33,084 bases of DNA from Saprospiraceae bacterium (GTDB taxonomy: Bacteria > Bacteroidota > Bacteroidia > Chitinophagales > Saprospiraceae), in NCBI GenBank assembly GCA_020847425.1, contig JADLCC010000312.1:1-33084 (forward strand), given 5' to 3'. Position 1 is the first letter of the stretch, and each line of letters opens with the position of its first letter. The notes under the pieces were generated by a model. That model did no database searches. It saw only the letters and a list, made by a program, of their open reading frames with translations, and was not told where the DNA came from. The position numbers and the translations under genes were made by a program. This document shows positions 1 to 33,084 of the stretch, piece after piece.

Positions 1-1
1 A

Positions 2-133
2 TTCGGTATGGGACACGGAAAAATCTGGTACGAAGATCAGCATCCTTTTATGTTCGTAATGTTCGGCGTGCTGTTCCTGTTCGGCGGCGGCGGGAAGTGG
101 AGTTTGGATGGGGTGTTGTTCGACCGGCGATAA
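2..133 (+). CDS. DoxX-like membrane protein, C-terminal fragment
   Basis: Only the last 43 residues are present; the gene runs off the window start. The fragment reads through an aromatic, glycine-rich segment (GHGKIWYEDQHPF), one hydrophobic stretch (MFVMFGVLFLFGGGG) and the ending KWSLDGVLFDRR. A final membrane helix followed by a G-x-G/S-L-D type ending is characteristic of the DoxX family, small four-helix inner-membrane proteins sometimes linked to quinone or thiosulfate redox chemistry. The family call rests on this short tail, so the precise role is unknown. The stop is TAA at 131-133. A hairpin repeat begins six bases later and could serve as its terminator. Confidence 0.55.
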   Translation, partial: FGMGHGKIWYEDQHPFMFVMFGVLFLFGGGGKWSLDGVLFDRR

Positions 134-138
134 TTATT

Positions 139-210
139 AAACACATAGGCACATAGAAAACATAGTTCTTAGAGTACTCTACGCTATGTGTTCTATGTGC
201 CTATGTGTTT
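139..210. repeat. Imperfect inverted repeat, 27-base arms (CACATAGGCACATAG family)
   Basis: Arms at 139-165 and 184-210 pair over 27 bases with one mismatch, separated by an 18-base loop. The element fills the gap between the DoxX-like stop and the GH43-like gene. It contains ATG triplets in frame with the GH43-like gene (188 and 203), which make a longer reading frame look possible, but the signal peptide shows that translation starts downstream at 245 or 248. It may act as a transcription terminator for the upstream gene. I see it only once per arm here. Confidence 0.85.
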
Positions 211-244
211 AAAAAATAAATATGTGGTTAAAGCAATAAATACC

Positions 245-1978
245 ATGATGAACAGAATCCTATTCCTTCTGCTTTTCCTTTCCGCAGTTTCCTCCGGCGC
301 CGCACAACAAACATATTGCAACCCCGTCAACCTCGACTACGGCTTCACCCCCATTCCCAATTTCAGCGAATGGGGCCGCCACCGCGCTACGGCCGACCCC
401 GTCATCGTGACCTACAAAGGCGACTATTACCTTTTTTCCACCAATCAATGGGGATACTGGTGGAGCAGCGACCTGCTGAACTGGCACTTTGTGTCGCGGA
501 GTTTCCTGAAATCCTACCACAAGGTGTACGACGACCTCTGCGCGCCCGCCGTCGGTATCATCGGCGACACGATGCTGCTGTTCGGCTCCACCTACGGTCG
601 CGATTTCCCGATCTGGATGAGCACCAACCCTAAAGCCAATGAGTGGTCCGAGGCCGTAGCCGCTTTCGACATCGGCGGCTGGGACCCGGCGTTTTTTACC
701 GACAACGACGGGCGGCTCTACATGTACAACGGCAGCAGCAACCGCTACCCGATGTACGGCGTCGAACTGAACCGCAAAACCCTGCAACCCATGGGTTACC
801 GCAAGGAAATGTACCTGCTCGAACCGGACCGCTACGGCTGGCAGCGTTTCGGCGAATACATGGACAATACGTTTCTCGACCCCTTCATCGAAGGCGCCTG
901 GATGACCCGGCACAACAATAAATACTACCTGCAATACGGCGCGCCGGGTACCGAATTCAGCGGCTATGCCGACGGCGTGGTGGTGGGCGATAGTCCGCTG
1001 GGGCCTTTTACGCCGCAGTCGGACCCTTTTTCTTTTAAACCCGGCGGTTTTGCGCGCGGAGCCGGGCACGGCGCTACTTTTCAGGACAAATGGAACAACT
1101 GGTGGCACGTGTCGACCGTCATCCTTTCCGTCAAAAACAACTTCGAACGCCGGCTCGGCATCTGGCCTGCCGGATTTGACGGAGATCTGATGTATTGCAA
1201 CACCGTATTCGGCGATTACCCACACTACCTGCCCAACGGCCCCGCCGACCACCTGAAAAGCCGTTTCACCGGCTGGATGCTGCTGAATTACAAAAAACCG
1301 GTGCAGGTGTCCTCCACTTTCGGGGCTTACAATGCCAACAATGCCGTGGATGAAAGCATGAAAACGTACTGGTCGGCTGCCGGCTCCAATGCCGGCGAAT
1401 GGCTGCAAAGCGACCTCGGGGCGCTGTCCACCGTTCGGGCCATTCAGATCAACTACGCCGACCAGGACGCCGGTCTGCTGGGCAAACAAACCGATATTTA
1501 CCACCAGTACCGGATTTTTCACTCCGCCGACGGCCGCAAATGGGAATTGCTCGTGGATAAAAGTAAAAACACGACGGATGTGCCGCACGATTACGTCGAA
1601 CTGGCCCAACCTGTACGTACACGTTTTATCAAACTGGAAAACGTACACATGGCTGCGGGCAAATTCGCCATTTCAGGGCTGCGGGTCTTCGGCAACGGGG
1701 AAGGCACAAAGCCCGACAGCGTCCGCTCGCTCATCGTGTTGCGCACTGAAAAAGACAAACGTTCCGCCTGGCTCAAATGGGGACCTGTGGACAATGCCTA
1801 TGCCTATAATATCTACTTCGGCACCGAGCCTGACAAACTGCACAACTGCATCATGGTGCACGATGCCAATGAATACTACTACAAGGGCATGGACAATCAG
1901 AAAACGTATTATTATTCTATCGAGGCGGTGAATGAGAATGGGGTTTCGGGTCGCTCGGAGGTAAAAAAGGTAGAATGA
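245..1978 (+). CDS. Secreted GH43-like glycosidase with F5/8 type C and FN3 domains
   Basis: Probable exported glycoside hydrolase acting on arabinose- or xylose-containing glycans; the substrate cannot be read from sequence. The chosen start gives MMNRILFLLLFLSAVSSGAAQ, a clear signal peptide; 248 is equally possible, while the upstream in-frame ATGs lie in a hairpin repeat. The five-bladed propeller catalytic domain covers about residues 22-345. It has the family 43 triad pattern: Asp51 in ATADPVIV (base), Asp147 in GGWDPAFF (pKa modulator) and Glu216 in DPFIEGAWM (acid), plus a GHG motif near residue 275. An F5/8 type C (discoidin-like) domain follows at about 351-484, and a fibronectin III-like domain at about 489-573. 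It overlaps the next gene by ATGA, suggesting translational coupling. No SusC/SusD genes are nearby. Family assignment is strong; activity is inferred. Confidence 0.87.
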   Translation: MMNRILFLLLFLSAVSSGAAQQTYCNPVNLDYGFTPIPNFSEWGRHRATADPVIVTYKGDYYLFSTNQWGYWWSSDLLNWHFVSRSFLKSYHKVYDDLCAPAVGIIGDTMLLFGSTYGRDFPIWMSTNPKANEWSEAVAAFDIGGWDPAFFTDNDGRLYMYNGSSNRYPMYGVELNRKTLQPMGYRKEMYLLEPDRYGWQRFGEYMDNTFLDPFIEGAWMTRHNNKYYLQYGAPGTEFSGYADGVVVGDSPLGPFTPQSDPFSFKPGGFARGAGHGATFQDKWNNWWHVSTVILSVKNNFERRLGIWPAGFDGDLMYCNTVFGDYPHYLPNGPADHLKSRFTGWMLLNYKKPVQVSSTFGAYNANNAVDESMKTYWSAAGSNAGEWLQSDLGALSTVRAIQINYADQDAGLLGKQTDIYHQYRIFHSADGRKWELLVDKSKNTTDVPHDYVELAQPVRTRFIKLENVHMAAGKFAISGLRVFGNGEGTKPDSVRSLIVLRTEKDKRSAWLKWGPVDNAYAYNIYFGTEPDKLHNCIMVHDANEYYYKGMDNQKTYYYSIEAVNENGVSGRSEVKKVE

Positions 1979-2415
1979 AAAAAGTTGTTCTGACATATCG
2001 GGATGTCAGCGGCAATGTTGCCGTAGAATCAATTTGGGCAGAACCAATTGGAATGCACTACAAAGTAGATAACATCCCTTTTTTTGCTCCGAATATTGCG
2101 CTGAATGATATCATCAGTGTGGAAAAGGAGGAGGGTGTTTTGCATTTTGAGGAGTTGATTTCCCCTTCGGGTCACTCAACAATCCAAATTGTAATGCTCA
2201 ATAGAAAGGAGAAAAACAGAATAATCGAGGAAATTGAAAGCCTGAATTGTTCCTGGGAAGGTTTTAAGGATTCCATTATTGCCTTGGATATTCCGGCTAC
2301 ATTCGATTATCGAAAAATAAAGGAATTTTTACAAAGAGAATTGAACAACCAGGTACTTGATTATAAAGAAGCATGTTTATCGAATCAACACAGGTCGGAG
2401 AAACTGTTCGATTAA
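1975..2415 (+). CDS. DUF4265 domain-containing protein
   Basis: A 146-residue cytoplasmic protein with no signal peptide or membrane helix. The N-terminal half (VESIWAEPIGMHYKVDNIPFF, then ALNDIISVE and SGHSTIQIVML) has the pattern I associate with DUF4265: a VE-S-WAEP start, a Y-x-(V/L)-DN-I-PF segment, a 'D-(I/V)-(I/V)-x-(V/A)-E' turn and a SGHST motif. No enzymatic role is established for this family, and none is proposed here. The start ATG at 1975 overlaps the stop codon of the glycosidase by four bases, so the two are probably co-transcribed. Base composition drops to a more AT-rich level than the upstream gene, which may indicate separate histories. A large hairpin follows 29 bases after the stop. 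Confidence 0.75.
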   Translation: MKKVVLTYRDVSGNVAVESIWAEPIGMHYKVDNIPFFAPNIALNDIISVEKEEGVLHFEELISPSGHSTIQIVMLNRKEKNRIIEEIESLNCSWEGFKDSIIALDIPATFDYRKIKEFLQRELNNQVLDYKEACLSNQHRSEKLFD

Positions 2416-2444
2416 TAATAGCACTAACCAATTTAACTCAAGAA

Positions 2445-2554
2445 GCCAAGAGTGGGTGTCATTCAGAGCCGTAGGCGAAGAATCTGAGGCCGAAGGCCAA
2501 TATTTATTATATCAGATTCTTCGCCTACGGCTCTGAATGACACCCACTCTTGGC
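2445..2554. repeat. Perfect inverted repeat, 43-base arms, between convergent genes
   Basis: Arms at 2445-2487 and 2512-2554 are exact reverse complements over 43 bases, with a 24-base loop that itself contains a GGCC-GAA-GGCC mini-hairpin. The element lies between the stops of the DUF4265 gene and the GlxA-type regulator, which converge on it, so bidirectional termination is a reasonable guess. The arm includes GTCATTCAGAGCCGTAGGCG, a type I recall as a dispersed intergenic repeat in Bacteroidota; that recollection was not checked. Confidence 0.92.
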
Positions 2555-2633
2555 ATTTATATTTAAAAATTAGCCCCCATAAGTATCTGAAAAACATTAC
2601 ATCTGTGTACTGAAAGATTACTTTTTGTGACGT

Positions 2634-3611
2634 TTACTGTTCACTCTTCCCACCCCGCCGAAACTCCCCCGGCGCACAGCCTTTCACCCTTCCCCAGAAC
2701 CTCGAAAACTGCCTGGGGTTCCCAAACCCGCATTCAATGGCAATTTCTTTTACCGACATTTCCGTGTGCAGCAGCAGGCGTTCGCCGTGTTCGATGCGTA
2801 ATTTTTCGCGGTAAGCCTGCACGGTTTCTCCGGTGTGGTCTTTGAACAAGCGCGACAGGTGGCGACTGCTCCTGTTCATTATCCGGGCCAGGTCGGTGAT
2901 GGTAAAACTGGCGTCGAGGCGGTTGGCCAGTATTTCCTGTGCTTTGTACACATCCGCGTTGAAGTGGTTTTTAAAATCCAGGAAAATATTTTGTTGTCCG
3001 GCAGTTTCGTTGCGCCGCACATTGATGACCATTTCCTGCGCCACCTTCGCTGCCAGCAAGGGGTTGCGCCAGCGCTCCACCAGCGCCAGCGCCATGTCGA
3101 TGCCCGAGGTCATGCCCGCGCTGGTAAAAATGCCTTTATCAAACACATACAGCCTGTTTTCGAGCACATGGGCCTTGGGGAAATGTGCTTTCATGTATGA
3201 GAGGCATTTCCAGTGGCTGGTGCAGTCCACGTGGTCGAGCAAACCCATTCGACCAAGCGCGAGCGCGCCTGAACAGATGGATGCGATATAAACACCTTTT
3301 TCCCGCTGTTCCCACAACCAGTTTTTGGAGCGCTCGATCACAGCATCCAGTTCGCCGGCCTGAAAACTGGCAAAATCGAAACCCGGCACACAAACCATAT
3401 CTCCTTTTTTCAGCGACAGGTCCTGCACATTGGTAAGTGTCGAAAACGCAAGACCCTGCGCGCAGGTCACGTTTTTATCGGCTGCTGCAAAATGGATTTT
3501 AAAATTCCGGTTGCCCAGTTCCGAGGCTTCGTAAAACACCTGGGCCGCGCCGGCAAGGTCCTGGAGGTGCATTTTGGGCAGCAGTAAGAAGACAATTTTT
3601 GTGGTTTCCAT
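2634..3611 (-). CDS. GlxA-type AraC family transcriptional regulator (DJ-1/PfpI + HTH)
   Basis: Cytoplasmic DNA-binding regulator of 325 residues if started at METTKIVFLLL; an in-frame ATG ten codons upstream (3641) is possible but adds a poorly conserved leader. The DJ-1/PfpI-like domain occupies about 1-190, with the nucleophile-elbow motif IASICSGALALG (Cys113, Ser114) and Asp18 in HLQDLAGAAQVF. The AraC-type double helix-turn-helix lies at about 225-320: FTITDLARIMNRSSRHLSRL, then MSVKEIAIECGFGNPRQFSR. In isonitrile hydratase-like members the residue after Cys is Thr; here it is Ser, so a sensory rather than catalytic role is more likely. It is transcribed divergently from the exported DJ-1/PfpI gene, which is a candidate target. 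The ligand is unknown. Confidence 0.9.
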   Translation of the reverse strand: METTKIVFLLLPKMHLQDLAGAAQVFYEASELGNRNFKIHFAAADKNVTCAQGLAFSTLTNVQDLSLKKGDMVCVPGFDFASFQAGELDAVIERSKNWLWEQREKGVYIASICSGALALGRMGLLDHVDCTSHWKCLSYMKAHFPKAHVLENRLYVFDKGIFTSAGMTSGIDMALALVERWRNPLLAAKVAQEMVINVRRNETAGQQNIFLDFKNHFNADVYKAQEILANRLDASFTITDLARIMNRSSRHLSRLFKDHTGETVQAYREKLRIEHGERLLLHTEMSVKEIAIECGFGNPRQFSRFWGRVKGCAPGEFRRGGKSEQ

Positions 3612-3705
3612 GTATAAAAGAGGAAAAGGCGAAGCAGGCAACCGATTTATCCGGACACACTCTGGTCAAAAGAAGACATTTTCATAACGGCTTGGTTGCA
3701 GGTCC

Positions 3706-3713
3706 TAACTTTG
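3706..3713 (+). promoter_or_regulatory. Candidate Bacteroidota -7 box TAACTTTG upstream of the exported DJ-1/PfpI gene
   Basis: An exact match to the TAnnTTTG consensus in the 225-base divergent gap, 123 bases before the preferred start at 3837. I see no convincing TTTG element at the expected upstream spacing, so this is a motif match only. A binding site for the divergent GlxA-type regulator would be expected in the same gap, but no obvious operator stands out. Confidence 0.35.
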
Positions 3714-3836
3714 AAAAAAAATTTAATAACCAACCCAACGTCGTGTTGAACGAGAAGTGGTATGCCTTTATTGATTACCAATGCCTTCTCAACTTTCAAC
3801 ATGCTCAACCGCTCAACTTTAATAAAAAGGATTGCT

Positions 3837-5138
3837 ATGAAACAATTTCTGAAAATCACCCTCTTGCTTTTGCTTGTTACGAATGTTCGTATACTGTATG
3901 CTCAGGTCAGCGACAAACCGCTTTCCGTGGGCATTGTTGTTTACCCCGGCGTTGAAATACTGGATTTCAGCGGCCCTTCGGAAGTGTTCGGTTCCACGGA
4001 AGGTTTCAAGGCTTTTATAGTGGCTTACAAAAAAGAGCCGCTTTTGAGCCAGGGATTTATCACTGTTACGCCGCAATACGCCATAGATGATTGCCCGCCT
4101 ACGGATATCCTCGTTTTCCCCGGCGGCGGTACGGGTTCGGTGATCGGCGAACAGAAGATGATCGACTGGATCAGGGAACGTTCAAAAACCACCCAGTTCA
4201 TGATGTCGGTTTGTACCGGTGCGGCACTGCTCTCCAAAGCCGGTTTGCTCGACGGCAAAGAGGTGACCACCTGGTACGGGTTTATTCCCGGCCTGAAAGA
4301 GATGAATCCCTCGGCCACCGTACTTTCCAACACGCGTTTTGTCGATAACGGTCATGTCGTGACCACTGCCGGCGTTTCAGCAGGCATAGATGGCGCCTTG
4401 CACGTAGTTTCAAGGATTAAAGGAGAAACCGCTGCCAAGGCGACGGCCCGCTACATGGAATACGACAAATGGCAGCCTCGGGATGGCAAAGTGAATGAAA
4501 CCCCTTTTGTGAAAACTGCCCGCGAGCAAGGTATCGAAGCGGCTACAAAAAGTATCCAACCCGTACCGGGTAGTCTCCAACCTTTGTACTATCCCGGTGA
4601 AATGATCAACCTGGCTATGGAATTGATGGATACCAAACCCACGGAAAGCGAGGCTATTTTGCGCTGGCTGATACAATCCACTGCGCCTACGCCTGCACTG
4701 TACGACGTATTGGGAATGGTTTACTCAAAAATGGGTAAAACAGTGCCGCCCGACAGTCGCACTTTCCGTGATCACCTCGCCGATGGAGACATTGCATGGG
4801 CTAAACAAACCTATACGGAAACGATAAAAATGTACCCGGATTGGCGGCTTTTCACCGAAGATCAAATCAACGGTGTGGGTTATCAATTGCAGAGCATCAA
4901 AAAAATAAAGGAAGCCATCGAACTGTTCCAATGGAACACCGAATTGTACCCTGCTTCGGCCAATGCCTGGGACAGCCTTTCAGAAATGTATGAATCTGCG
5001 GGAAAACGGGAACTGGCTATCGCTGCCAGCGAACAATGTCTGGCAAAATTACCAGCCTGCGGTTATGATGAACAAACGAAACAGGCCCTTACAAAAGCGT
5101 CTAAAGAACGGATTGTTCGGCTGAAGGAGAAAGGGTAG
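3837..5138 (+). CDS. Exported DJ-1/PfpI family protein with C-terminal TPR-like region
   Basis: A 433-residue protein. The start at 3837 yields MKQFLKITLLLLLVTNVRIL followed by YAQ, a clean signal peptide; ATGs at 3762 and 3801 would bury it, so they were rejected. Residues about 25-205 form a DJ-1/PfpI domain with Asp43 in VEILDFSGPSEVF and the nucleophile elbow MSVCTGAALLSKAGLL (Cys126, Thr127). This Asp/Cys/Thr set resembles that of isonitrile hydratase. Residues about 355-411 contain TPR-like helices (KEAIELFQWNTELYPASANA then WDSLSEMYESAGKRELAIAA). An exported location is unusual for this superfamily. The gene faces a GlxA-type regulator across a 225-base gap and overlaps the next gene's 3' end by 38 bases. 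Enzymatic activity is inferred only from motif similarity. Confidence 0.85.
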   Translation: MKQFLKITLLLLLVTNVRILYAQVSDKPLSVGIVVYPGVEILDFSGPSEVFGSTEGFKAFIVAYKKEPLLSQGFITVTPQYAIDDCPPTDILVFPGGGTGSVIGEQKMIDWIRERSKTTQFMMSVCTGAALLSKAGLLDGKEVTTWYGFIPGLKEMNPSATVLSNTRFVDNGHVVTTAGVSAGIDGALHVVSRIKGETAAKATARYMEYDKWQPRDGKVNETPFVKTAREQGIEAATKSIQPVPGSLQPLYYPGEMINLAMELMDTKPTESEAILRWLIQSTAPTPALYDVLGMVYSKMGKTVPPDSRTFRDHLADGDIAWAKQTYTETIKMYPDWRLFTEDQINGVGYQLQSIKKIKEAIELFQWNTELYPASANAWDSLSEMYESAGKRELAIAASEQCLAKLPACGYDEQTKQALTKASKERIVRLKEKG

Positions 5139-5742
5139 ATTTTCCGATCCGCGCAAAAAGCATATCCACCATAAATTTCAGGACCACCAAAGCGATGGCC
5201 ACCCACATGGCCTGGTTGAGTTGCGGGTACTTGGGAATCAGGTGCATAGTGAGCGCCTGCAAAAAAGCGAGCAACACCAGCATGTGCACAAAGGGCCTCG
5301 CCAACTCACCCATAGGGCTGGCTGTTTTATAATTGCCGTTGCCAAAATAATGGATAGCCAGCCCTAAAATATACCCGGCGGTCATGATCCGGGTTTGTAT
5401 TGCAATGTTGGCCAGACTGGTATAATCACCGCCGTCCTGAAACGCATTAATTGTAAATACCACCGCGAACATAATGAATGTGCCACCCATCACGGCGCCG
5501 CCGATAAGCAGCCCGATTTTCAAACCGATCTGGTCCAGAAAGGGCCGGTTTTCCAGGGCGAACAACATGCGCAGCAATGCGCTCGCTACGATTAATATCA
5601 CTTCCCACCAAAACAGGAACACGATGGGTTTCAAATCCCATTGCAAAAACAAAATGCCGTACAGGGTAATGCCCAGGTTCATAATGGGCAACCACCAGGG
5701 TTTCGAATGTTGAAAGAGTGGCGATTCCAGGATTCTGTTCAT
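5101..5742 (-). CDS. Polytopic inner-membrane protein, possibly DUF6498 family
   Basis: A 213-residue hydrophobic protein with about five to six membrane segments: near residues 17-34, 40-60, 74-100, 115-132, 148-165 and 178-196. The early pattern, a short helix, then a W-D-L-K-P loop and a helix containing FLFWWEVILIV, resembles DUF6498 membrane proteins, but I hold this family name with limited confidence. No catalytic motif is visible, and function is unknown. Its 3' end overlaps the 3' end of the exported DJ-1/PfpI gene by 38 bases in convergent orientation. It lies downstream of the M16 protease on the same strand, separated by 148 bases containing a strong hairpin, so it probably has its own transcript. 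Confidence 0.7.
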   Translation of the reverse strand: MNRILESPLFQHSKPWWLPIMNLGITLYGILFLQWDLKPIVFLFWWEVILIVASALLRMLFALENRPFLDQIGLKIGLLIGGAVMGGTFIMFAVVFTINAFQDGGDYTSLANIAIQTRIMTAGYILGLAIHYFGNGNYKTASPMGELARPFVHMLVLLAFLQALTMHLIPKYPQLNQAMWVAIALVVLKFMVDMLFARIGKSTLSPSAEQSVL

Positions 5743-5788
5743 TGCCTTGGATGTATTTTTACCACATTATTTTTAGTGTGTATTTAGT

Positions 5789-5877
5789 GTGTAGTGTTTG
5801 GTGTTTAGGACGGTAACGCCTGGCCCAGGTTATTAACTTGGACAAAGCGTTACCGCCCCAAACACCAAACACCACAC
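5789..5877. repeat. Imperfect inverted repeat, 44-base arms, after the M16 protease gene
   Basis: Arms at 5789-5832 and 5834-5877 pair over 44 bases with seven mismatches, six of them transitions, and a one-base loop. The outer half consists of GTGTTTGGTGTTT plus a GGTAACGC block. It sits 13 bases beyond the M16 stop and 46 bases upstream of the membrane-protein start. A long stem immediately after a stop codon is consistent with a terminator, or with protection of the mRNA 3' end. Transition-only decay of arms suggests an old element. Confidence 0.85.
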
Positions 5878-5890
5878 CCGAAACACTACA

Positions 5891-8647
5891 CTACGGTTTC
5901 ACCGGTTTCTTAAATTCCCCAGCCTTCACCACAATCATTTTCGAATAATCGAGGTGTTTTTTGATGGCGGCATTCACTTTATCCGTGGTAAGCGCTGCCA
6001 CGGCCTTTTCCTTATTGGCATTCCAGGAAAAATCGCGGCCCAGTTCCAGGTAATAATTCAACGTACCGGCCAGGTAACTGTCGCCCGAGCGGTTTACTTT
6101 TTGTGAACTCAGCCAGCCCGATTTGGCGGCTTCCAGTTCGGTTGTGGTAAAACCATCTTTGGATGCGCGTTCGATCTCTTCCTTGTACGCCGCTTCCAGT
6201 TTACTGAGGTTTTCCGGGTTGTAAATCATAAAGGAAGAAAATGCAGCATTTTGATCCTCATCGCTGGCAGAAAAACTACCCCGGACTGTGTAACTCAAAC
6301 CCTCTTTCTGGCGAATGCGGGTAGCCAGCCGGGAATTCAGAAATCCGCCGCCCAGCATGTATCCGCCCAGTTCAACGGCGGGGTATTCCGGGTCGTCGGA
6401 GCGCATGGCAAAACCGTAACCCGCTACATAAGCCGCATTGGCTTTGTCGGGCGTATTGATTTCTTCTGATCTGGGTGCAACGGGCTGATAATCCATACTA
6501 TAGCGTTTGTAACGCACCGGACTTTTCCAGTCGCCAAATACTTCTTTGAGCGCAGCTTCGGTTTCTTTCGCGTCAAAATCGCCGACAACAGCAGCGGTAG
6601 CATCCGAGGCGCCGTAAAAATCCTTGTAAAAACTTTTCACCTGGTCCAGCGTGACAGCCTTGACGGATTCCAGTTGTTCTTCAAACGTCTCCGTATACCG
6701 CGGATCGTCTTTCGAATAGTTTGGTCTGGAAATACGGCCGAACGTATTATAAGCCAAAGCAGTAGGGTCCGTTTTGGTTTCCTCGATACCTGCCAGTTGT
6801 TCCTGTTTCATTTTGTCAAATTCATTCTGCGGGAAGGCCGGTTTGCGCAGCACTTCTCCAACGAGGCGGATAACTGCGGGCAGGTGTTCGCGGTCTGTTT
6901 CGATGGTTATATCTGTTCCCATTGGTCCGCCGAAAAAGTTGGCGCGCGCTTTCAGTTTGTCGAATGCCTCCTTGAGTTCTTCGCGGTTTTTAGTTGCCGT
7001 GCCTTTATCGAGCATGGAAGCCGTGAAGTCGCCGATCGTCGATTTGCCTTTTGCTGTTTCCAGGGTACCGAAATTGAGGGAAATGCGCATGGTTACCACG
7101 TCGCCGCGGGTTTCCTTGGGCAGCATCGCGTATTTCATGCCATTGGGCAATGTTTTGCGGGTGGTGCGTTTTTCCAGGTTTTCGGGCGAGGGGTCAAAAT
7201 CTTCGCCTTGCGCCATCGGCGCTTTGCCTTTATAGTCTTTCAACAGCGCATTGAGATCTGGTGCGGCGGGAATATCCGAGCGGTCCGGGTTTTTATCCGG
7301 AATAAAAGTGCCGAGGGTGCGGTTGGCTGATTTGAAATATTTGGCTACCACCAGCATAATATCCTCGCGGGTAATGGTTTCCAGGCGGTCGCGGTACAGG
7401 AATGCCAACCGCCAGTCGCCCGTGCCGACAAAGTTGCTGAGGCTAAGGCCTACGCGGCTGCTTTCTTTAAAAAACATTTCCTGGTTTTTCAGCAGGCGCG
7501 TTTTGGCTTTGTCTACTTCTTCCTGGGTAGGTCCGTTTATTTTCAGGTCTTCCAACACGGCGAGCATGATCTGCCTGGCCGAGTCGAGGTTGCCGTCGGC
7601 GCGCACTTCCGTCACAAAACGGGTGATGCCGGCTTCTGCAAAACCGGAAGCACCGCCATAGACACCTACTGCTTTCTTGCTCTCTACCAGGGCTTTATAT
7701 AAACGGCCGGTAGGCTCGTCAGTCAGTAAGTTGCTCAGTACGGAAAGTGCAGGATAGTCCGGGTGCGAGCCCGGGCAGCTGCGGTACATGGCTGAAAAGA
7801 CCTGTACGTCGCCGGTGCGGCGCAGGGTTATGGAACGTTCGCCATCCTGTGTCGGCTCTTCCGTATAGGTTGCTACAAGTTTGCGTTCGGGGCGCGGAAT
7901 GGGCGAGAAGTACTCATGTACCATATCCAGCGTTTTTTGCTCGTCTATTTTACCGGCAATCAGCAGCAGTGCATTGTCGGGCTGGTAATATTTGTGGTAA
8001 AAAGCCTGTAAACGTTCGATGGGCGCTTTTTCAATGTCCGATTTTTCGCCGATGGTCGAGTGGCCGTAGTTGTGGAAATTAAAAGCGGATGCCATCATGC
8101 GCTTGTACAATACACCGCCGGGGTTGTTTTCGCCCGATTCGTATTCGTTGCGCACCACGCTGAATTCACTTTCCAGGTCTTTGCGGGCAATAAAGGAATT
8201 GACCATCCGGTCGCTTTCCAAATCGAGTGCCCAGCGCAGGTTGACGTCGGTAGCGTCAAAGGTTTCAAAATAGTTGGTGCGGTCGAAGGACGTAGTGCCG
8301 TTGGGCCGGGCGCCGTGTTCGGTGAGCTCCTGCGGGATGTTGGTATGCTTGGGCGTTCCTTTAAAAACGAGGTGCTCCAGCAGGTGCGCCATGCCTGTTT
8401 CGCCGTAATCTTCGTGCCGGGAACCCACTTTATACGTGATATTGACCGTTATAATGGGTTTCGACATATCGGGAAACAACAAAACCTGAAGGCCGTTGGC
8501 AAGCCGGTATTCCGTAATGCCTTCTACAGTCGTGACGTATTGTACGCCTTCCGGCAGTTTTAGTTTGTTTTGTGCGGATACTACATTGCTGATAAACAAA
8601 GCGACCAGAAAGAGTGGTAGTCGCCTGAAAAATTGGGCTGTCGTCAT
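5891..8647 (-). CDS. Secreted M16 family zinc metalloprotease (pitrilysin-like, duplicated)
   Basis: A 918-residue peptidase predicted to act in the periplasm or at the outer membrane. Residues 1-26 are a signal peptide ending VVSAQ. The N-terminal M16 domain carries the inverted zinc motif HLLEH (His88, Glu91, His92) in GMAHLLEHLVFKGT. The third ligand, Glu168 in VVRNEYE, lies 76 residues later, the usual spacing. The second half (from about residue 490) repeats the fold, but its equivalent segment (GDFTASMLDKGT) lacks HxxEH, so it should be inactive. It retains the C-terminal R...Y pair in RIRQKEGLSYTVRG near 777-790, used for substrate binding in the family. This two-domain, one-active-site layout is typical. 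A heptamer repeat array reaches to within about eight bases of the start codon. Substrate unknown. Confidence 0.95.
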   Translation of the reverse strand: MTTAQFFRRLPLFLVALFISNVVSAQNKLKLPEGVQYVTTVEGITEYRLANGLQVLLFPDMSKPIITVNITYKVGSRHEDYGETGMAHLLEHLVFKGTPKHTNIPQELTEHGARPNGTTSFDRTNYFETFDATDVNLRWALDLESDRMVNSFIARKDLESEFSVVRNEYESGENNPGGVLYKRMMASAFNFHNYGHSTIGEKSDIEKAPIERLQAFYHKYYQPDNALLLIAGKIDEQKTLDMVHEYFSPIPRPERKLVATYTEEPTQDGERSITLRRTGDVQVFSAMYRSCPGSHPDYPALSVLSNLLTDEPTGRLYKALVESKKAVGVYGGASGFAEAGITRFVTEVRADGNLDSARQIMLAVLEDLKINGPTQEEVDKAKTRLLKNQEMFFKESSRVGLSLSNFVGTGDWRLAFLYRDRLETITREDIMLVVAKYFKSANRTLGTFIPDKNPDRSDIPAAPDLNALLKDYKGKAPMAQGEDFDPSPENLEKRTTRKTLPNGMKYAMLPKETRGDVVTMRISLNFGTLETAKGKSTIGDFTASMLDKGTATKNREELKEAFDKLKARANFFGGPMGTDITIETDREHLPAVIRLVGEVLRKPAFPQNEFDKMKQEQLAGIEETKTDPTALAYNTFGRISRPNYSKDDPRYTETFEEQLESVKAVTLDQVKSFYKDFYGASDATAAVVGDFDAKETEAALKEVFGDWKSPVRYKRYSMDYQPVAPRSEEINTPDKANAAYVAGYGFAMRSDDPEYPAVELGGYMLGGGFLNSRLATRIRQKEGLSYTVRGSFSASDEDQNAAFSSFMIYNPENLSKLEAAYKEEIERASKDGFTTTELEAAKSGWLSSQKVNRSGDSYLAGTLNYYLELGRDFSWNANKEKAVAALTTDKVNAAIKKHLDYSKMIVVKAGEFKKPVKP

Positions 8648-8654
8648 AATAAAA

Positions 8655-8687
8655 GAAGTGAGAAGTGAGAGGTGAGAAGTGAGAGGG
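8655..8687. repeat. GTGAGAR heptamer array in the leader of the M16 gene
   Basis: About four consecutive seven-base units alternating GTGAGAA and GTGAGAG. Read on the minus strand this is a pyrimidine-rich CTTCTCAC-type tract lying in the expected 5' leader of the M16 protease, ending about eight bases from its ATG. The same unit recurs at 8864-8933, 9012-9048 and 11651-11688. Units are too short, and spacers absent, for CRISPR. Confidence 0.85.
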
Positions 8688-8791
8688 TGCTTCGCCTGGA
8701 GATTGTGTGTTGGCGAAACGGGAGTGTTATAAAAAACGCTGCGTCAACATATTACCTTCATCTGAGACGCTTTCACTCTTTTTAACGGGGC

Positions 8792-8799
8792 CAAAGGTA
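8792..8799 (-). promoter_or_regulatory. Candidate -7 box TACCTTTG for the M16 protease gene
   Basis: On the minus strand the sequence TACCTTTG fits the Bacteroidota TAnnTTTG consensus. A GTTTTG motif lies 25 bases upstream of it, somewhat farther than the usual spacing to the -33 TTTG box. Transcription from here would give a leader of roughly 140 bases that includes the heptamer array. Motif evidence only. Confidence 0.4.
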
Positions 8800-8863
8800 A
8801 ACAAGGTCTTTTTTCATTTGCTCACAAAACGGTGAGTGTGCGTTTGGCGAGCATAATCAACCA

Positions 8864-8933
8864 GAAGTGAGAGGTGAGAAGTGAGAAGTGAGAGGCGAGA
8901 AGTGAGAGGGTAAGAGAAGTGAGAGGGTGAGAG
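8864..8933. repeat. Longest GTGAGAR heptamer array
   Basis: About nine to ten units of GTGAGAA/GTGAGAG with occasional variants (GCGAGAA, a TAAGAGAA interruption). It lies between fabH and the M16 gene and merges with the left arm of the 20-base inverted repeat. Variable unit copy number would be expected from slippage, so this array is a candidate strain-typing locus. Confidence 0.85.
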
Positions 8934-9024
8934 CCGACTTTGATTCAACCTCGAGTCTCTTGACATTCCTAATTATGAATGCCCGGGGTAATCAGGTGTA
9001 ATCCAAGTCGGCTCTCACCCTCTC
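8921..9024. repeat. Inverted repeat, 20-base perfect arms, built partly from heptamer units
   Basis: Arms at 8921-8940 and 9005-9024 are exact reverse complements (GAGAGGGTGAGAGCCGACTT). Pairing continues inward with three mismatches over the next ten bases. The arm core GCCGACTT is not part of the heptamer. Lying just after the FabH stop, it could terminate fabH transcription. Confidence 0.85.
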
Positions 9025-9048
9025 ACCCTCTCACCCTCTCATCTCTCA
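9012..9048. repeat. GTGAGAR heptamer array on the minus strand, overlapping the FabH stop
   Basis: On the minus strand, units of GTGAGAG/GTGAGAGGG begin at the TGA stop of the FabH-type gene, so the stop codon itself is part of the first GGTGAGAG unit. This placement suggests that the repeat spread up to, but not into, the coding sequence. Confidence 0.8.
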
Positions 9049-10116: not shown

Positions 10117-10348
10117 GTGAGAGCGTCGTAAAAATGATGAGAAAATGAATTTCAGAATTTATGCAAAACAAGGCTTGTAAAAACCAATAAAGGCAAGGCA
10201 AAGTTGACAAAAATTTAGCAAAAAGATTGTTTCCCCAGGCAATTGCTGCCTCCGCACAGAGCAGGAACTTCGGAAAAGTGCGCGAAAACTGCGTTCCCAC
10301 CGATTTTTTTCCGTTTTTTGCAGAAAATTTCGTGTTTGAAACTGATTT
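10117..10348. other. Divergent intergenic region between fabH-like and CNNM-like genes
   Basis: 232 bases between two diverging starts, AT-rich near both genes, so it must contain both promoters. No exact TAnnTTTG box was found on either strand at a sensible distance, and no hairpin or repeat is evident. Nothing else to report. Confidence 0.6.
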
Positions 10349-11650: not shown

Positions 11651-11688
11651 AGAGAGAAGTGAGAAGTGAGAGGGTGAGAAGTGAGAGG
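11651..11688. repeat. GTGAGAR heptamer array after the CNNM-like gene
   Basis: About five units of GTGAGAA/GTGAGAG beginning directly after the TAG stop. It is the same unit as at 8655-8687, 8864-8933 and 9012-9048, so the family occurs at two loci in this 16.5 kb segment, each time abutting a stop codon or close to a start codon. Confidence 0.85.
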
Positions 11689-22736: not shown

Positions 22737-22968
22737 AAATCAGTTTCAAACACGAAATTTTCTGCAAAAAACGGAAAAAAATCGGTGGGAACGCAGTTTT
22801 CGCGCACTTTTCCGAAGTTCCTGCTCTGTGCGGAGGCAGCAATTGCCTGGGGAAACAATCTTTTTGCTAAATTTTTGTCAACTTTGCCTTGCCTTTATTG
22901 GTTTTTACAAGCCTTGTTTTGCATAAATTCTGAAATTCATTTTCTCATCATTTTTACGACGCTCTCAC
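22737..22968. other. Mirror copy: divergent intergenic region
   Basis: Same as 10117-10348; promoters for both neighbours are expected here, but no clear motif was found. Confidence 0.58.
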
Positions 22969-24039: not shown

Positions 24040-24073
24040 GAGATGAGAGGGTGAGAGGGTGAGAGGGTGAGAG
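24037..24073. repeat. Mirror copy: GTGAGAR heptamer array overlapping the FabH-like stop
   Basis: Mirror of 9012-9048, on the plus strand here as GGTGAGAG units starting at the stop codon. Confidence 0.8.
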
Positions 24074-24164
24074 CCGACTTGGATTACACCTGATTACCCC
24101 GGGCATTCATAATTAGGAATGTCAAGAGACTCGAGGTTGAATCAAAGTCGGCTCTCACCCTCTC
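24061..24164. repeat. Mirror copy: inverted repeat with 20-base perfect arms
   Basis: Arms at 24061-24080 and 24145-24164, mirror of 8921-9024; a possible fabH-like terminator. Confidence 0.85.
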
Positions 24165-24221
24165 ACTTCTCTTACCCTCTCACTTCTCGCCTCTCACTTC
24201 TCACTTCTCACCTCTCACTTC
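24152..24221. repeat. Mirror copy: longest GTGAGAR heptamer array
   Basis: Mirror of 8864-8933, read here as CTCACTTCT-type units. Confidence 0.85.
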
Positions 24222-24285
24222 TGGTTGATTATGCTCGCCAAACGCACACTCACCGTTTTGTGAGCAAATGAAAAAAGACCTTGTT

Positions 24286-24293
24286 TACCTTTG
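24286..24293 (+). promoter_or_regulatory. Mirror copy: candidate -7 box TACCTTTG of the M16 gene
   Basis: Mirror of 8792-8799, preceded by GTTTTG at a spacing of 25 bases. Confidence 0.38.
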
Positions 24294-24397
24294 GCCCCGT
24301 TAAAAAGAGTGAAAGCGTCTCAGATGAAGGTAATATGTTGACGCAGCGTTTTTTATAACACTCCCGTTTCGCCAACACACAATCTCCAGGCGAAGCA

Positions 24398-24430
24398 CCC
24401 TCTCACTTCTCACCTCTCACTTCTCACTTC
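24398..24430. repeat. Mirror copy: heptamer array in the M16 leader
   Basis: Mirror of 8655-8687. On this strand the tract is CTCACTTCTCACCTCTCAC-like and ends about eight bases before the ATG at 24438. Confidence 0.85.
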
Positions 24431-24437
24431 TTTTATT

Positions 24438-27194: not shown

Positions 27195-27207
27195 TGTAGT
27201 GTTTCGG

Positions 27208-27296
27208 GTGTGGTGTTTGGTGTTTGGGGCGGTAACGCTTTGTCCAAGTTAATAACCTGGGCCAGGCGTTACCGTCCTAAACACCAAACACTACAC
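27208..27296. repeat. Mirror copy: imperfect inverted repeat with 44-base arms
   Basis: Mirror of 5789-5877, 13 bases beyond the M16 stop; a possible terminator. Confidence 0.85.
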
Positions 27297-27342
27297 ACTA
27301 AATACACACTAAAAATAATGTGGTAAAAATACATCCAAGGCA

Positions 27343-27984
27343 ATGAACAGAATCCTGGAATCGCCACTCTTTCAACATTCGAAACCCTGGTGGTTGCCCA
27401 TTATGAACCTGGGCATTACCCTGTACGGCATTTTGTTTTTGCAATGGGATTTGAAACCCATCGTGTTCCTGTTTTGGTGGGAAGTGATATTAATCGTAGC
27501 GAGCGCATTGCTGCGCATGTTGTTCGCCCTGGAAAACCGGCCCTTTCTGGACCAGATCGGTTTGAAAATCGGGCTGCTTATCGGCGGCGCCGTGATGGGT
27601 GGCACATTCATTATGTTCGCGGTGGTATTTACAATTAATGCGTTTCAGGACGGCGGTGATTATACCAGTCTGGCCAACATTGCAATACAAACCCGGATCA
27701 TGACCGCCGGGTATATTTTAGGGCTGGCTATCCATTATTTTGGCAACGGCAATTATAAAACAGCCAGCCCTATGGGTGAGTTGGCGAGGCCCTTTGTGCA
27801 CATGCTGGTGTTGCTCGCTTTTTTGCAGGCGCTCACTATGCACCTGATTCCCAAGTACCCGCAACTCAACCAGGCCATGTGGGTGGCCATCGCTTTGGTG
27901 GTCCTGAAATTTATGGTGGATATGCTTTTTGCGCGGATCGGAAAATCTACCCTTTCTCCTTCAGCCGAACAATCCGTTCTTTAG
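27343..27984 (+). CDS. Mirror copy: polytopic membrane protein, possibly DUF6498
   Basis: Identical to the 213-residue protein at 5101-5742, with the same 38-base tail-to-tail overlap with the exported DJ-1/PfpI gene. Confidence 0.68.
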   Translation: MNRILESPLFQHSKPWWLPIMNLGITLYGILFLQWDLKPIVFLFWWEVILIVASALLRMLFALENRPFLDQIGLKIGLLIGGAVMGGTFIMFAVVFTINAFQDGGDYTSLANIAIQTRIMTAGYILGLAIHYFGNGNYKTASPMGELARPFVHMLVLLAFLQALTMHLIPKYPQLNQAMWVAIALVVLKFMVDMLFARIGKSTLSPSAEQSVL

Positions 27985-29248
27985 ACGCTTTTGTAAGGGC
28001 CTGTTTCGTTTGTTCATCATAACCGCAGGCTGGTAATTTTGCCAGACATTGTTCGCTGGCAGCGATAGCCAGTTCCCGTTTTCCCGCAGATTCATACATT
28101 TCTGAAAGGCTGTCCCAGGCATTGGCCGAAGCAGGGTACAATTCGGTGTTCCATTGGAACAGTTCGATGGCTTCCTTTATTTTTTTGATGCTCTGCAATT
28201 GATAACCCACACCGTTGATTTGATCTTCGGTGAAAAGCCGCCAATCCGGGTACATTTTTATCGTTTCCGTATAGGTTTGTTTAGCCCATGCAATGTCTCC
28301 ATCGGCGAGGTGATCACGGAAAGTGCGACTGTCGGGCGGCACTGTTTTACCCATTTTTGAGTAAACCATTCCCAATACGTCGTACAGTGCAGGCGTAGGC
28401 GCAGTGGATTGTATCAGCCAGCGCAAAATAGCCTCGCTTTCCGTGGGTTTGGTATCCATCAATTCCATAGCCAGGTTGATCATTTCACCGGGATAGTACA
28501 AAGGTTGGAGACTACCCGGTACGGGTTGGATACTTTTTGTAGCCGCTTCGATACCTTGCTCGCGGGCAGTTTTCACAAAAGGGGTTTCATTCACTTTGCC
28601 ATCCCGAGGCTGCCATTTGTCGTATTCCATGTAGCGGGCCGTCGCCTTGGCAGCGGTTTCTCCTTTAATCCTTGAAACTACGTGCAAGGCGCCATCTATG
28701 CCTGCTGAAACGCCGGCAGTGGTCACGACATGACCGTTATCGACAAAACGCGTGTTGGAAAGTACGGTGGCCGAGGGATTCATCTCTTTCAGGCCGGGAA
28801 TAAACCCGTACCAGGTGGTCACCTCTTTGCCGTCGAGCAAACCGGCTTTGGAGAGCAGTGCCGCACCGGTACAAACCGACATCATGAACTGGGTGGTTTT
28901 TGAACGTTCCCTGATCCAGTCGATCATCTTCTGTTCGCCGATCACCGAACCCGTACCGCCGCCGGGGAAAACGAGGATATCCGTAGGCGGGCAATCATCT
29001 ATGGCGTATTGCGGCGTAACAGTGATAAATCCCTGGCTCAAAAGCGGCTCTTTTTTGTAAGCCACTATAAAAGCCTTGAAACCTTCCGTGGAACCGAACA
29101 CTTCCGAAGGGCCGCTGAAATCCAGTATTTCAACGCCGGGGTAAACAACAATGCCCACGGAAAGCGGTTTGTCGCTGACCTGAGCATACAGTATACGAAC
29201 ATTCGTAACAAGCAAAAGCAAGAGGGTGATTTTCAGAAATTGTTTCAT
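27947..29248 (-). CDS. Mirror copy: exported DJ-1/PfpI protein with TPR-like C-terminus
   Basis: Identical to the 433-residue protein at 3837-5138: signal peptide, Asp43, Cys126 and Thr127 in the DJ-1/PfpI domain, and C-terminal TPR-like helices. Confidence 0.84.
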   Translation of the reverse strand: MKQFLKITLLLLLVTNVRILYAQVSDKPLSVGIVVYPGVEILDFSGPSEVFGSTEGFKAFIVAYKKEPLLSQGFITVTPQYAIDDCPPTDILVFPGGGTGSVIGEQKMIDWIRERSKTTQFMMSVCTGAALLSKAGLLDGKEVTTWYGFIPGLKEMNPSATVLSNTRFVDNGHVVTTAGVSAGIDGALHVVSRIKGETAAKATARYMEYDKWQPRDGKVNETPFVKTAREQGIEAATKSIQPVPGSLQPLYYPGEMINLAMELMDTKPTESEAILRWLIQSTAPTPALYDVLGMVYSKMGKTVPPDSRTFRDHLADGDIAWAKQTYTETIKMYPDWRLFTEDQINGVGYQLQSIKKIKEAIELFQWNTELYPASANAWDSLSEMYESAGKRELAIAASEQCLAKLPACGYDEQTKQALTKASKERIVRLKEKG

Positions 29249-29371
29249 AGCAATCCTTTTTATTAAAGTTGAGCGGTTGAGCATGTTGAAAGTTGAGAAG
29301 GCATTGGTAATCAATAAAGGCATACCACTTCTCGTTCAACACGACGTTGGGTTGGTTATTAAATTTTTTTT

Positions 29372-29379
29372 CAAAGTTA
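29372..29379 (-). promoter_or_regulatory. Mirror copy: candidate -7 box TAACTTTG
   Basis: Mirror of 3706-3713 in the divergent gap between the two DJ-1 superfamily genes. Confidence 0.33.
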
Positions 29380-29473
29380 GGACCTGCAACCAAGCCGTTA
29401 TGAAAATGTCTTCTTTTGACCAGAGTGTGTCCGGATAAATCGGTTGCCTGCTTCGCCTTTTCCTCTTTTATAC

Positions 29474-30451
29474 ATGGAAACCACAAAAATTGTCTTCTTA
29501 CTGCTGCCCAAAATGCACCTCCAGGACCTTGCCGGCGCGGCCCAGGTGTTTTACGAAGCCTCGGAACTGGGCAACCGGAATTTTAAAATCCATTTTGCAG
29601 CAGCCGATAAAAACGTGACCTGCGCGCAGGGTCTTGCGTTTTCGACACTTACCAATGTGCAGGACCTGTCGCTGAAAAAAGGAGATATGGTTTGTGTGCC
29701 GGGTTTCGATTTTGCCAGTTTTCAGGCCGGCGAACTGGATGCTGTGATCGAGCGCTCCAAAAACTGGTTGTGGGAACAGCGGGAAAAAGGTGTTTATATC
29801 GCATCCATCTGTTCAGGCGCGCTCGCGCTTGGTCGAATGGGTTTGCTCGACCACGTGGACTGCACCAGCCACTGGAAATGCCTCTCATACATGAAAGCAC
29901 ATTTCCCCAAGGCCCATGTGCTCGAAAACAGGCTGTATGTGTTTGATAAAGGCATTTTTACCAGCGCGGGCATGACCTCGGGCATCGACATGGCGCTGGC
30001 GCTGGTGGAGCGCTGGCGCAACCCCTTGCTGGCAGCGAAGGTGGCGCAGGAAATGGTCATCAATGTGCGGCGCAACGAAACTGCCGGACAACAAAATATT
30101 TTCCTGGATTTTAAAAACCACTTCAACGCGGATGTGTACAAAGCACAGGAAATACTGGCCAACCGCCTCGACGCCAGTTTTACCATCACCGACCTGGCCC
30201 GGATAATGAACAGGAGCAGTCGCCACCTGTCGCGCTTGTTCAAAGACCACACCGGAGAAACCGTGCAGGCTTACCGCGAAAAATTACGCATCGAACACGG
30301 CGAACGCCTGCTGCTGCACACGGAAATGTCGGTAAAAGAAATTGCCATTGAATGCGGGTTTGGGAACCCCAGGCAGTTTTCGAGGTTCTGGGGAAGGGTG
30401 AAAGGCTGTGCGCCGGGGGAGTTTCGGCGGGGTGGGAAGAGTGAACAGTAA
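29474..30451 (+). CDS. Mirror copy: GlxA-type AraC family transcriptional regulator
   Basis: Identical to the 325-residue protein at 2634-3611, with Cys113 in SICSGA and the AraC double helix-turn-helix. The alternative start is ten codons upstream at 29444. Confidence 0.89.
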   Translation: METTKIVFLLLPKMHLQDLAGAAQVFYEASELGNRNFKIHFAAADKNVTCAQGLAFSTLTNVQDLSLKKGDMVCVPGFDFASFQAGELDAVIERSKNWLWEQREKGVYIASICSGALALGRMGLLDHVDCTSHWKCLSYMKAHFPKAHVLENRLYVFDKGIFTSAGMTSGIDMALALVERWRNPLLAAKVAQEMVINVRRNETAGQQNIFLDFKNHFNADVYKAQEILANRLDASFTITDLARIMNRSSRHLSRLFKDHTGETVQAYREKLRIEHGERLLLHTEMSVKEIAIECGFGNPRQFSRFWGRVKGCAPGEFRRGGKSEQ

Positions 30452-30530
30452 ACGTCACAAAAAGTAATCTTTCAGTACACAGATGTAATGTTTTTCAGAT
30501 ACTTATGGGGGCTAATTTTTAAATATAAAT

Positions 30531-30640
30531 GCCAAGAGTGGGTGTCATTCAGAGCCGTAGGCGAAGAATCTGATATAATAAATATTGGCCTTCGGCCTCA
30601 GATTCTTCGCCTACGGCTCTGAATGACACCCACTCTTGGC
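30531..30640. repeat. Mirror copy: perfect inverted repeat with 43-base arms
   Basis: Arms at 30531-30573 and 30598-30640, mirror of 2445-2554, between convergent genes. Confidence 0.92.
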
Positions 30641-30669
30641 TTCTTGAGTTAAATTGGTTAGTGCTATTA

Positions 30670-31110
30670 TTAATCGAACAGTTTCTCCGACCTGTGTTGA
30701 TTCGATAAACATGCTTCTTTATAATCAAGTACCTGGTTGTTCAATTCTCTTTGTAAAAATTCCTTTATTTTTCGATAATCGAATGTAGCCGGAATATCCA
30801 AGGCAATAATGGAATCCTTAAAACCTTCCCAGGAACAATTCAGGCTTTCAATTTCCTCGATTATTCTGTTTTTCTCCTTTCTATTGAGCATTACAATTTG
30901 GATTGTTGAGTGACCCGAAGGGGAAATCAACTCCTCAAAATGCAAAACACCCTCCTCCTTTTCCACACTGATGATATCATTCAGCGCAATATTCGGAGCA
31001 AAAAAAGGGATGTTATCTACTTTGTAGTGCATTCCAATTGGTTCTGCCCAAATTGATTCTACGGCAACATTGCCGCTGACATCCCGATATGTCAGAACAA
31101 CTTTTTTCAT
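30670..31110 (-). CDS. Mirror copy: DUF4265 domain-containing protein
   Basis: Identical to the 146-residue protein at 1975-2415, with the same four-base ATGA overlap with the glycosidase stop. Confidence 0.74.
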   Translation of the reverse strand: MKKVVLTYRDVSGNVAVESIWAEPIGMHYKVDNIPFFAPNIALNDIISVEKEEGVLHFEELISPSGHSTIQIVMLNRKEKNRIIEEIESLNCSWEGFKDSIIALDIPATFDYRKIKEFLQRELNNQVLDYKEACLSNQHRSEKLFD

Positions 31111-32840
31111 TCTACCTTTTTTACCTCCGAGCGACCCGAAACCCCATTCTCATTCACCGCCTCGATAGAATAATAATACGTTTTCTGATTGTCCATGCCC
31201 TTGTAGTAGTATTCATTGGCATCGTGCACCATGATGCAGTTGTGCAGTTTGTCAGGCTCGGTGCCGAAGTAGATATTATAGGCATAGGCATTGTCCACAG
31301 GTCCCCATTTGAGCCAGGCGGAACGTTTGTCTTTTTCAGTGCGCAACACGATGAGCGAGCGGACGCTGTCGGGCTTTGTGCCTTCCCCGTTGCCGAAGAC
31401 CCGCAGCCCTGAAATGGCGAATTTGCCCGCAGCCATGTGTACGTTTTCCAGTTTGATAAAACGTGTACGTACAGGTTGGGCCAGTTCGACGTAATCGTGC
31501 GGCACATCCGTCGTGTTTTTACTTTTATCCACGAGCAATTCCCATTTGCGGCCGTCGGCGGAGTGAAAAATCCGGTACTGGTGGTAAATATCGGTTTGTT
31601 TGCCCAGCAGACCGGCGTCCTGGTCGGCGTAGTTGATCTGAATGGCCCGAACGGTGGACAGCGCCCCGAGGTCGCTTTGCAGCCATTCGCCGGCATTGGA
31701 GCCGGCAGCCGACCAGTACGTTTTCATGCTTTCATCCACGGCATTGTTGGCATTGTAAGCCCCGAAAGTGGAGGACACCTGCACCGGTTTTTTGTAATTC
31801 AGCAGCATCCAGCCGGTGAAACGGCTTTTCAGGTGGTCGGCGGGGCCGTTGGGCAGGTAGTGTGGGTAATCGCCGAATACGGTGTTGCAATACATCAGAT
31901 CTCCGTCAAATCCGGCAGGCCAGATGCCGAGCCGGCGTTCGAAGTTGTTTTTGACGGAAAGGATGACGGTCGACACGTGCCACCAGTTGTTCCATTTGTC
32001 CTGAAAAGTAGCGCCGTGCCCGGCTCCGCGCGCAAAACCGCCGGGTTTAAAAGAAAAAGGGTCCGACTGCGGCGTAAAAGGCCCCAGCGGACTATCGCCC
32101 ACCACCACGCCGTCGGCATAGCCGCTGAATTCGGTACCCGGCGCGCCGTATTGCAGGTAGTATTTATTGTTGTGCCGGGTCATCCAGGCGCCTTCGATGA
32201 AGGGGTCGAGAAACGTATTGTCCATGTATTCGCCGAAACGCTGCCAGCCGTAGCGGTCCGGTTCGAGCAGGTACATTTCCTTGCGGTAACCCATGGGTTG
32301 CAGGGTTTTGCGGTTCAGTTCGACGCCGTACATCGGGTAGCGGTTGCTGCTGCCGTTGTACATGTAGAGCCGCCCGTCGTTGTCGGTAAAAAACGCCGGG
32401 TCCCAGCCGCCGATGTCGAAAGCGGCTACGGCCTCGGACCACTCATTGGCTTTAGGGTTGGTGCTCATCCAGATCGGGAAATCGCGACCGTAGGTGGAGC
32501 CGAACAGCAGCATCGTGTCGCCGATGATACCGACGGCGGGCGCGCAGAGGTCGTCGTACACCTTGTGGTAGGATTTCAGGAAACTCCGCGACACAAAGTG
32601 CCAGTTCAGCAGGTCGCTGCTCCACCAGTATCCCCATTGATTGGTGGAAAAAAGGTAATAGTCGCCTTTGTAGGTCACGATGACGGGGTCGGCCGTAGCG
32701 CGGTGGCGGCCCCATTCGCTGAAATTGGGAATGGGGGTGAAGCCGTAGTCGAGGTTGACGGGGTTGCAATATGTTTGTTGTGCGGCGCCGGAGGAAACTG
32801 CGGAAAGGAAAAGCAGAAGGAATAGGATTCTGTTCATCAT
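31107..32840 (-). CDS. Mirror copy: secreted GH43-like glycosidase
   Basis: Identical to the 577-residue protein at 245-1978: signal peptide, Asp51/Asp147/Glu216 triad pattern, F5/8 type C and FN3-like domains. Confidence 0.86.
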   Translation of the reverse strand: MMNRILFLLLFLSAVSSGAAQQTYCNPVNLDYGFTPIPNFSEWGRHRATADPVIVTYKGDYYLFSTNQWGYWWSSDLLNWHFVSRSFLKSYHKVYDDLCAPAVGIIGDTMLLFGSTYGRDFPIWMSTNPKANEWSEAVAAFDIGGWDPAFFTDNDGRLYMYNGSSNRYPMYGVELNRKTLQPMGYRKEMYLLEPDRYGWQRFGEYMDNTFLDPFIEGAWMTRHNNKYYLQYGAPGTEFSGYADGVVVGDSPLGPFTPQSDPFSFKPGGFARGAGHGATFQDKWNNWWHVSTVILSVKNNFERRLGIWPAGFDGDLMYCNTVFGDYPHYLPNGPADHLKSRFTGWMLLNYKKPVQVSSTFGAYNANNAVDESMKTYWSAAGSNAGEWLQSDLGALSTVRAIQINYADQDAGLLGKQTDIYHQYRIFHSADGRKWELLVDKSKNTTDVPHDYVELAQPVRTRFIKLENVHMAAGKFAISGLRVFGNGEGTKPDSVRSLIVLRTEKDKRSAWLKWGPVDNAYAYNIYFGTEPDKLHNCIMVHDANEYYYKGMDNQKTYYYSIEAVNENGVSGRSEVKKVE

Positions 32841-32874
32841 GGTATTTATTGCTTTAACCACATATTTATTTTTT

Positions 32875-32946
32875 AAACACATAGGCACATAGAACACATA
32901 GCGTAGAGTACTCTAAGAACTATGTTTTCTATGTGCCTATGTGTTT
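32875..32946. repeat. Mirror copy: imperfect inverted repeat with 27-base arms
   Basis: Mirror of 139-210, between the glycosidase and the DoxX-like fragment. Confidence 0.85.
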
Positions 32947-32951
32947 AATAA

Positions 32952-33083
32952 TTATCGCCGGTCGAACAACACCCCATCCAAACTCCACTTCCCGCCGCCG
33001 CCGAACAGGAACAGCACGCCGAACATTACGAACATAAAAGGATGCTGATCTTCGTACCAGATTTTTCCGTGTCCCATACCGAA
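32952..33083 (-). CDS. Mirror copy: DoxX-like membrane protein, C-terminal fragment
   Basis: Identical 43-residue tail to that at 2-133, cut by the window end at the same codon. Confidence 0.53.
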   Translation of the reverse strand, partial: FGMGHGKIWYEDQHPFMFVMFGVLFLFGGGGKWSLDGVLFDRR

Positions 33084-33084
33084 T

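Follow-up and report, generated by a model that had tools for sequence, protein, structure and literature searches.

The stretch of DNA analysed here, hereafter the window, comprises 33,084 bases and is the entire contig C312, from first to last base, of a draft genome (5.9 Mb in 628 contigs, 89.5% complete), and it raises the question of whether a contig that mirrors itself from end to end reflects the DNA of the organism or the way in which that DNA was assembled. We conclude that the contig is an assembly artefact of one kind or another, in which a single arm of 16,542 bases has been written twice, and we assign this reading a probability of about 0.96.

Symmetry of the contig and genes of the arm

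In a scripted comparison, the window was identical to its own reverse complement, with 0 mismatches across 33,084 positions, no spacer between the arms and only the letters A, C, G and T, and being its own reverse complement it qualifies as a palindromic (hairpin) assembly contig. This bears out the first-pass annotation, which had described a perfect, spacer-free palindrome of 2 x 16,542 bases. The longest perfect palindrome elsewhere measured 56 bp in the 102 other contigs of this genome that could be read (927,698 bases) and 58 bp in 138 other loci (1,902,588 bases, excluding loci with window DNA), and the palindrome of C312 is thus not due to chance. The contig scan was based on 108 of the 627 other contigs, six of which consisted entirely of N and were dropped, and ten of the 102 scanned contigs were covered over their first 20,000 bases only, including C41 (40,008 bases), where a fold at mid-contig would escape the scan. 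No whole-contig palindrome was found among these 102 contigs.

Besides the end of a DoxX gene, the arm holds ten genes, the last of which encodes a hybrid two-component sensor of 1,335 amino acids, and the axis of symmetry lies 86 bp beyond the stop codon of this sensor gene. The two arms and the genes are listed below, with mirrored positions and strands in brackets.

1-16542, + strand: the real arm in our reading, beginning in the 3' end of the DoxX gene and ending 86 bp beyond the hybrid sensor gene (from the symmetry and the C467 junction)
16543-33084, - strand: second copy, almost certainly artefactual, exact reverse complement of 1-16542 (0 mismatches)
188-1978, + strand: glycosyl hydrolase family 43 protein with F5/8 type C domain (31107-32897, -)
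1975-2415, + strand: DUF4265 protein (30670-31110, -)
2634-3641, - strand: DJ-1/PfpI plus AraC-type helix-turn-helix regulator (29444-30451, +)
3762-5138, + strand: DJ-1/PfpI family protein (27947-29323, -)
5101-5742, - strand: DUF6498 protein (27343-27984, +)
5891-8647, - strand: M16 (insulinase-family) peptidase (24438-27194, +)
9046-10116, - strand: 3-oxoacyl-ACP synthase III family protein (22969-24039, +)
10349-11650, + strand: CNNM/CBS/CorC_HlyC-domain protein (21435-22736, -)
11973-12443, - strand: DUF1801 protein (20642-21112, +)
12449-16456, + strand: hybrid two-component sensor with propeller, Y_Y_Y, HisKA, HATPase, receiver and AraC-type HTH domains (16629-20636, -)

Short GAGAAGTGAGAGGGTGAGA-type repeats occur in runs between genes (window 8654-8932 and 11641-11689), and several short inverted repeats around CGACCTCGGAGAGGTCG are present at 11764-11945, between the CNNM-domain and DUF1801 genes.

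Contig ends and related genomes

When the contigs of the genome bin were searched with the two ends of C312, both ends met one end of one contig, C467, by exactly 127 bases, rather than leading to two flanks. The features at the ends are as follows.

1-127, + strand: 127 bases in common with C467:1-127 as reverse complement (contig comparison)
32958-33084, - strand: mirror of 1-127, joining the same end of C467 (contig comparison)
131-218, no strand: imperfect inverted repeat beside the contig end, resembling the hairpin at the C110/C508 join (mirror 32867-32954)

An open DoxX reading frame extends from C467 through the overlap to window base 133, and the left junction therefore looks like ordinary genome sequence. 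Among the sampled contigs, an overlap of exactly 127 bases was also found at six other junctions, while two junctions deviated, with 123 and 112 bases, and overlaps of 127 bases are expected from a de Bruijn assembly that ends at k=127. The 112-base overlap lies between the end of C110 and the start of C508, which were considered as truncated folds and rejected as such, the two contigs joining in one natural hairpin that includes a 56-bp perfect palindrome. The similar repeat at 131-218 is a possible cause of the contig break there, and the two may belong to a dispersed repeat family that breaks the assembly.

For comparison with related genomes, we used the five nearest homologues of the sensor. 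Four genomes of the window's genus (G008, G024, G023 and G028) carry a full-length or nearly full-length ortholog at 81-90% identity, and a fifth relative, L085, matches sensor residues 252-1335 at 88%; the loci L084 and L086 were taken as contigs of G023 and G028 and counted once. Upstream of the sensor, four relatives gave no blastn-level match to the window arm beyond approximately 50 bases, which leaves only the sensor gene and its downstream side for comparison. Past the sensor stop codon, all five relatives continue in unfolded DNA, with a co-directional gene starting MRNLF 205-301 bp further on, and neither a perfect palindrome of fold length nor the 28-bp form described below was found downstream of the sensor in any of the five. 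The MRNLF gene is present in one to three copies in the inspected stretch of G008, G024, G023, G028 and L085.

These results support the earlier proposal of the first-pass annotation that a path had been joined to its own reverse complement by an assembler or a chimeric read. Of the checks that it had named, the search beyond positions 1 and 33084 returned the same end of C467 twice instead of two different flanks, and the comparison downstream of the hybrid sensor returned five relatives (5/5) that run on without folding. Searched with G024 DNA, the window's genome did not yield the gene that follows the sensor in the relatives (best E value 0.05, in short pieces), and the 143 bases on the axis side of the arm (16400-16542) had no second copy in its other contigs beyond short chance matches. 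The DNA that continues past the sensor in this genome may be unbinned or absent.

A real, perfect inverted duplication of 16.5 kb in the chromosome would have the sequence as assembled, but the arms would have to be free of any difference, the relatives are unfolded at this place, and long spacer-free palindromes are unstable in bacteria. As both ends of C312, searched against the contigs of the genome bin, meet the same end of C467, and not two flanks, this explanation was rejected, and we consider it highly improbable.

The 28-bp palindrome at the fold point

The axis bisects a short palindrome, which the first-pass annotation had not reported.

16529-16556, no strand: perfect 28-bp palindrome of the shape 12+4+12, the fold point

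The form consists of GTAGAGACGCAC, four free bases and GTGCGTCTCTAC. Its pattern is present in a single copy in the window's genome, even with up to three mismatches allowed, and the half-site GTAGAGACGCAC occurs elsewhere in that genome only in C127 and C274, within one 127-base overlap common to both. A text search of the literature for this 12-mer returned matches in work on human cells. With the central four bases left free, and with the window's own genome counted, the form was found in three of 42 genomes of the genus and in seven of 396 genomes of the order, the other 389 being without it; the carriers include G003 and G012, among others in the order. The distribution is patchy, and two genomes of the order account for 13 and 10 copies, respectively.

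Outside the window's genome, 30 copies were counted (29 from the order search and one more in G003), and 15 of these, taken from the first places listed per genome (L195-L198 and L259-L269), were fetched and all measured. All 28 bp are self-complementary in 11 of the 15 fetched copies, while the central four bases are not in the remaining four. Exact mirroring stops 0-15 bp outside the element in all 15, and in 14 of them it extends 0 to 6 bp. The exception, L198, has 15 bp of additional exact mirroring, followed by 30 matches among the next 60 positions; in the other fetched copies, 11 to 22 of 60 flank positions match, where 15 would be expected at equal base frequencies. All 15 copies sit in normally assembled contigs. 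With flanks that are mostly unmirrored, the form is thus real and dispersed, and normally lacks long mirrored flanks, although the extra mirroring at L198 means that part of the mirror near the axis of the window could itself be natural.

A palindrome at the axis would also be seen if C312 faithfully read through a hairpin telomere, closed covalently, of a linear chromosome or other large linear replicon in this member of the Bacteroidota, with the DNA turning at the 28-bp palindrome and the end processed by an enzyme that differs from the protelomerases known so far. The contig would then look the same and meet no competing branch, and indeed no continuation from the axis was found among the other contigs of the genome. 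However, no PF16684 protelomerase was detected at an E value of 0.001 in this 89.5%-complete genome, in a search that would miss an enzyme of an unlike kind and that, in a control, matched one of 14 named genomes (Synechococcus elongatus), so that it works while its reach is unproven. Nor was there a second similar end, as no second palindrome was found within three mismatches, although one could lie in the tenth of the genome that is missing. Additionally, the form is dispersed and internal to contigs elsewhere, and five of five relatives continue past the sensor gene. With a single copy of the pattern, no PF16684 match and a form dispersed inside contigs, the telomere was rejected as the main reading, and we regard both a hairpin end in general and one made by such an unlike enzyme as very remote prospects.

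Probable assembly route to the fold and its consequences

Within the artefact reading, we consider it fairly probable that the fold arose through the use of several k values in succession. At a small k (k+1 no larger than 28, e.g. k=21), a path entering the perfect palindrome could exit along its own opposite strand, since at such a k the palindrome is its own reverse complement. If coverage of the right flank were thin, or if that flank were trimmed off as a short dead end, the fold would be the sole way on, and the folded sequence would then be passed to larger k values and persist to k=127, with both ends halting at one and the same graph vertex, i.e. the end in common with C467. A smallest k of 21 is usual in assembly, and with this value assumed, the 28 bp at the axis are at least k+1 long, in a form that is found elsewhere without long mirrored flanks. 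From these observations we infer the assembler (SPAdes or the like), its k series, the lost coverage on the right flank and the dispensability of chimeric reads. Coordinate and k arithmetic gives the stretch on which a fold at the final k would depend.

16430-16655, no strand: stretch that a k=127 graph would have to span for the fold, from the 127-mer ending at the right edge of the palindrome to its mirror

Passages of PMC6736328 describe how SPAdes uses the sequences obtained at one k as input for the following one, and multi-k iteration is presented in similar terms in a portion of PMC7299287.

This route was modelled in a self-written toy assembly, which is far simpler than real assemblers and used error-free 150-base reads at 30-fold coverage in one random draw, k values of 21, 33, 55, 77, 99 and 127, and a 7,014-base model with a relative's flank as stand-in. 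The model contains one self-complementary 22-mer and no self-complementary 128-mer. When both flanks were fully covered, a single non-palindromic contig of 7,007 bases was obtained from k=33 on. When the reads went no further than the right edge of the palindrome (one extra read being placed to end exactly there), a single, fully palindromic contig resulted at every k, and reads reaching 60 bases past the palindrome, combined with clipping of short dead ends, gave a full palindrome too. No fold was obtained when the reads stopped 30 bases before the palindrome, nor, with k=127 alone, among the six longest contigs. A palindrome by itself rarely gives a fold, as all 15 copies of the form fetched from elsewhere are unfolded, 0 of the 102 other contigs are palindromic and the 56-bp natural palindrome at the C110/C508 join has not led to a whole-contig fold.

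An alternative route to the same artefact starts in library preparation, where a strand broken in the palindrome would pair with itself or with a sister molecule and end repair would copy the arm back, giving chimeric fold-back molecules whose reads the assembler follows. The strong palindrome at the axis is the structure that this would need, and passages of PMC10908179 report chimeric reads where inverted repeats or palindromes occur naturally, and propose a pairing model of this kind. However, chimeric reads are expected to be rarer than true reads, so that the graph should retain the true branch, whereas bases 16400-16542 have only short chance matches in the other contigs of the genome (an unbinned contig may carry them); moreover, since the toy assembly folds without chimeric reads, such a read is not needed. 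We regard this route, the main rival cause within the artefact reading, as possible but rather unlikely.

By either route, the fold of C312 is a known kind of error. A portion of PMC9455707 reports 81 palindromic contigs in SPAdes assemblies of Mycobacterium bovis, judged a likely assembly error, and these resemble C312 in that the entire contig is one palindrome with its genes duplicated as reverse complement; they differ in organism and data set, and in the available part of that text no palindrome is named at the fold. According to passages of PMC6736328 on rnaSPAdes, erroneous hairpin connections may yield chimeric palindromic sequence, in which, as here, an edge is joined to its own reverse complement, but those cases concern transcriptomes and are blamed on chimeric reads, whereas for C312 the natural 28-bp palindrome may suffice. 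The PDSM model, as set out in part of PMC10908179, likewise places the fold point at natural palindromes, but describes an artefact at the level of reads in human sequencing libraries, while C312 is a contig. No treatment of whole-contig palindromes was found in the portions available of PMC7111523, PMC8116208 and PMC6350398. The present case may add a small point, namely that a dispersed natural palindrome exceeding the smallest k may act as the trigger; no statement of this was found among the literature matches listed, in the parts of them available, and it may still be in print.

C312 almost certainly results from an assembly error; each of its genes should therefore enter a gene count only once, and the contig does not represent a biological discovery. 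The sensor at 12449-16456 and its mirror are one gene and not two converging genes, and the warning of the first-pass annotation concerning operons that span the axis, gene counts and claims of duplication follows directly from the artefact reading. In the draft genome, the contig doubles 16.5 kb, comprising one gene end and ten genes, and the fold thereby creates a false converging pair of sensor genes and inflates copy counts. A simple safeguard is to compare every contig with its own reverse complement. C312 further points to the possibility that a contig can be folded by a natural palindrome exceeding the assembler's smallest k, without any chimeric read.
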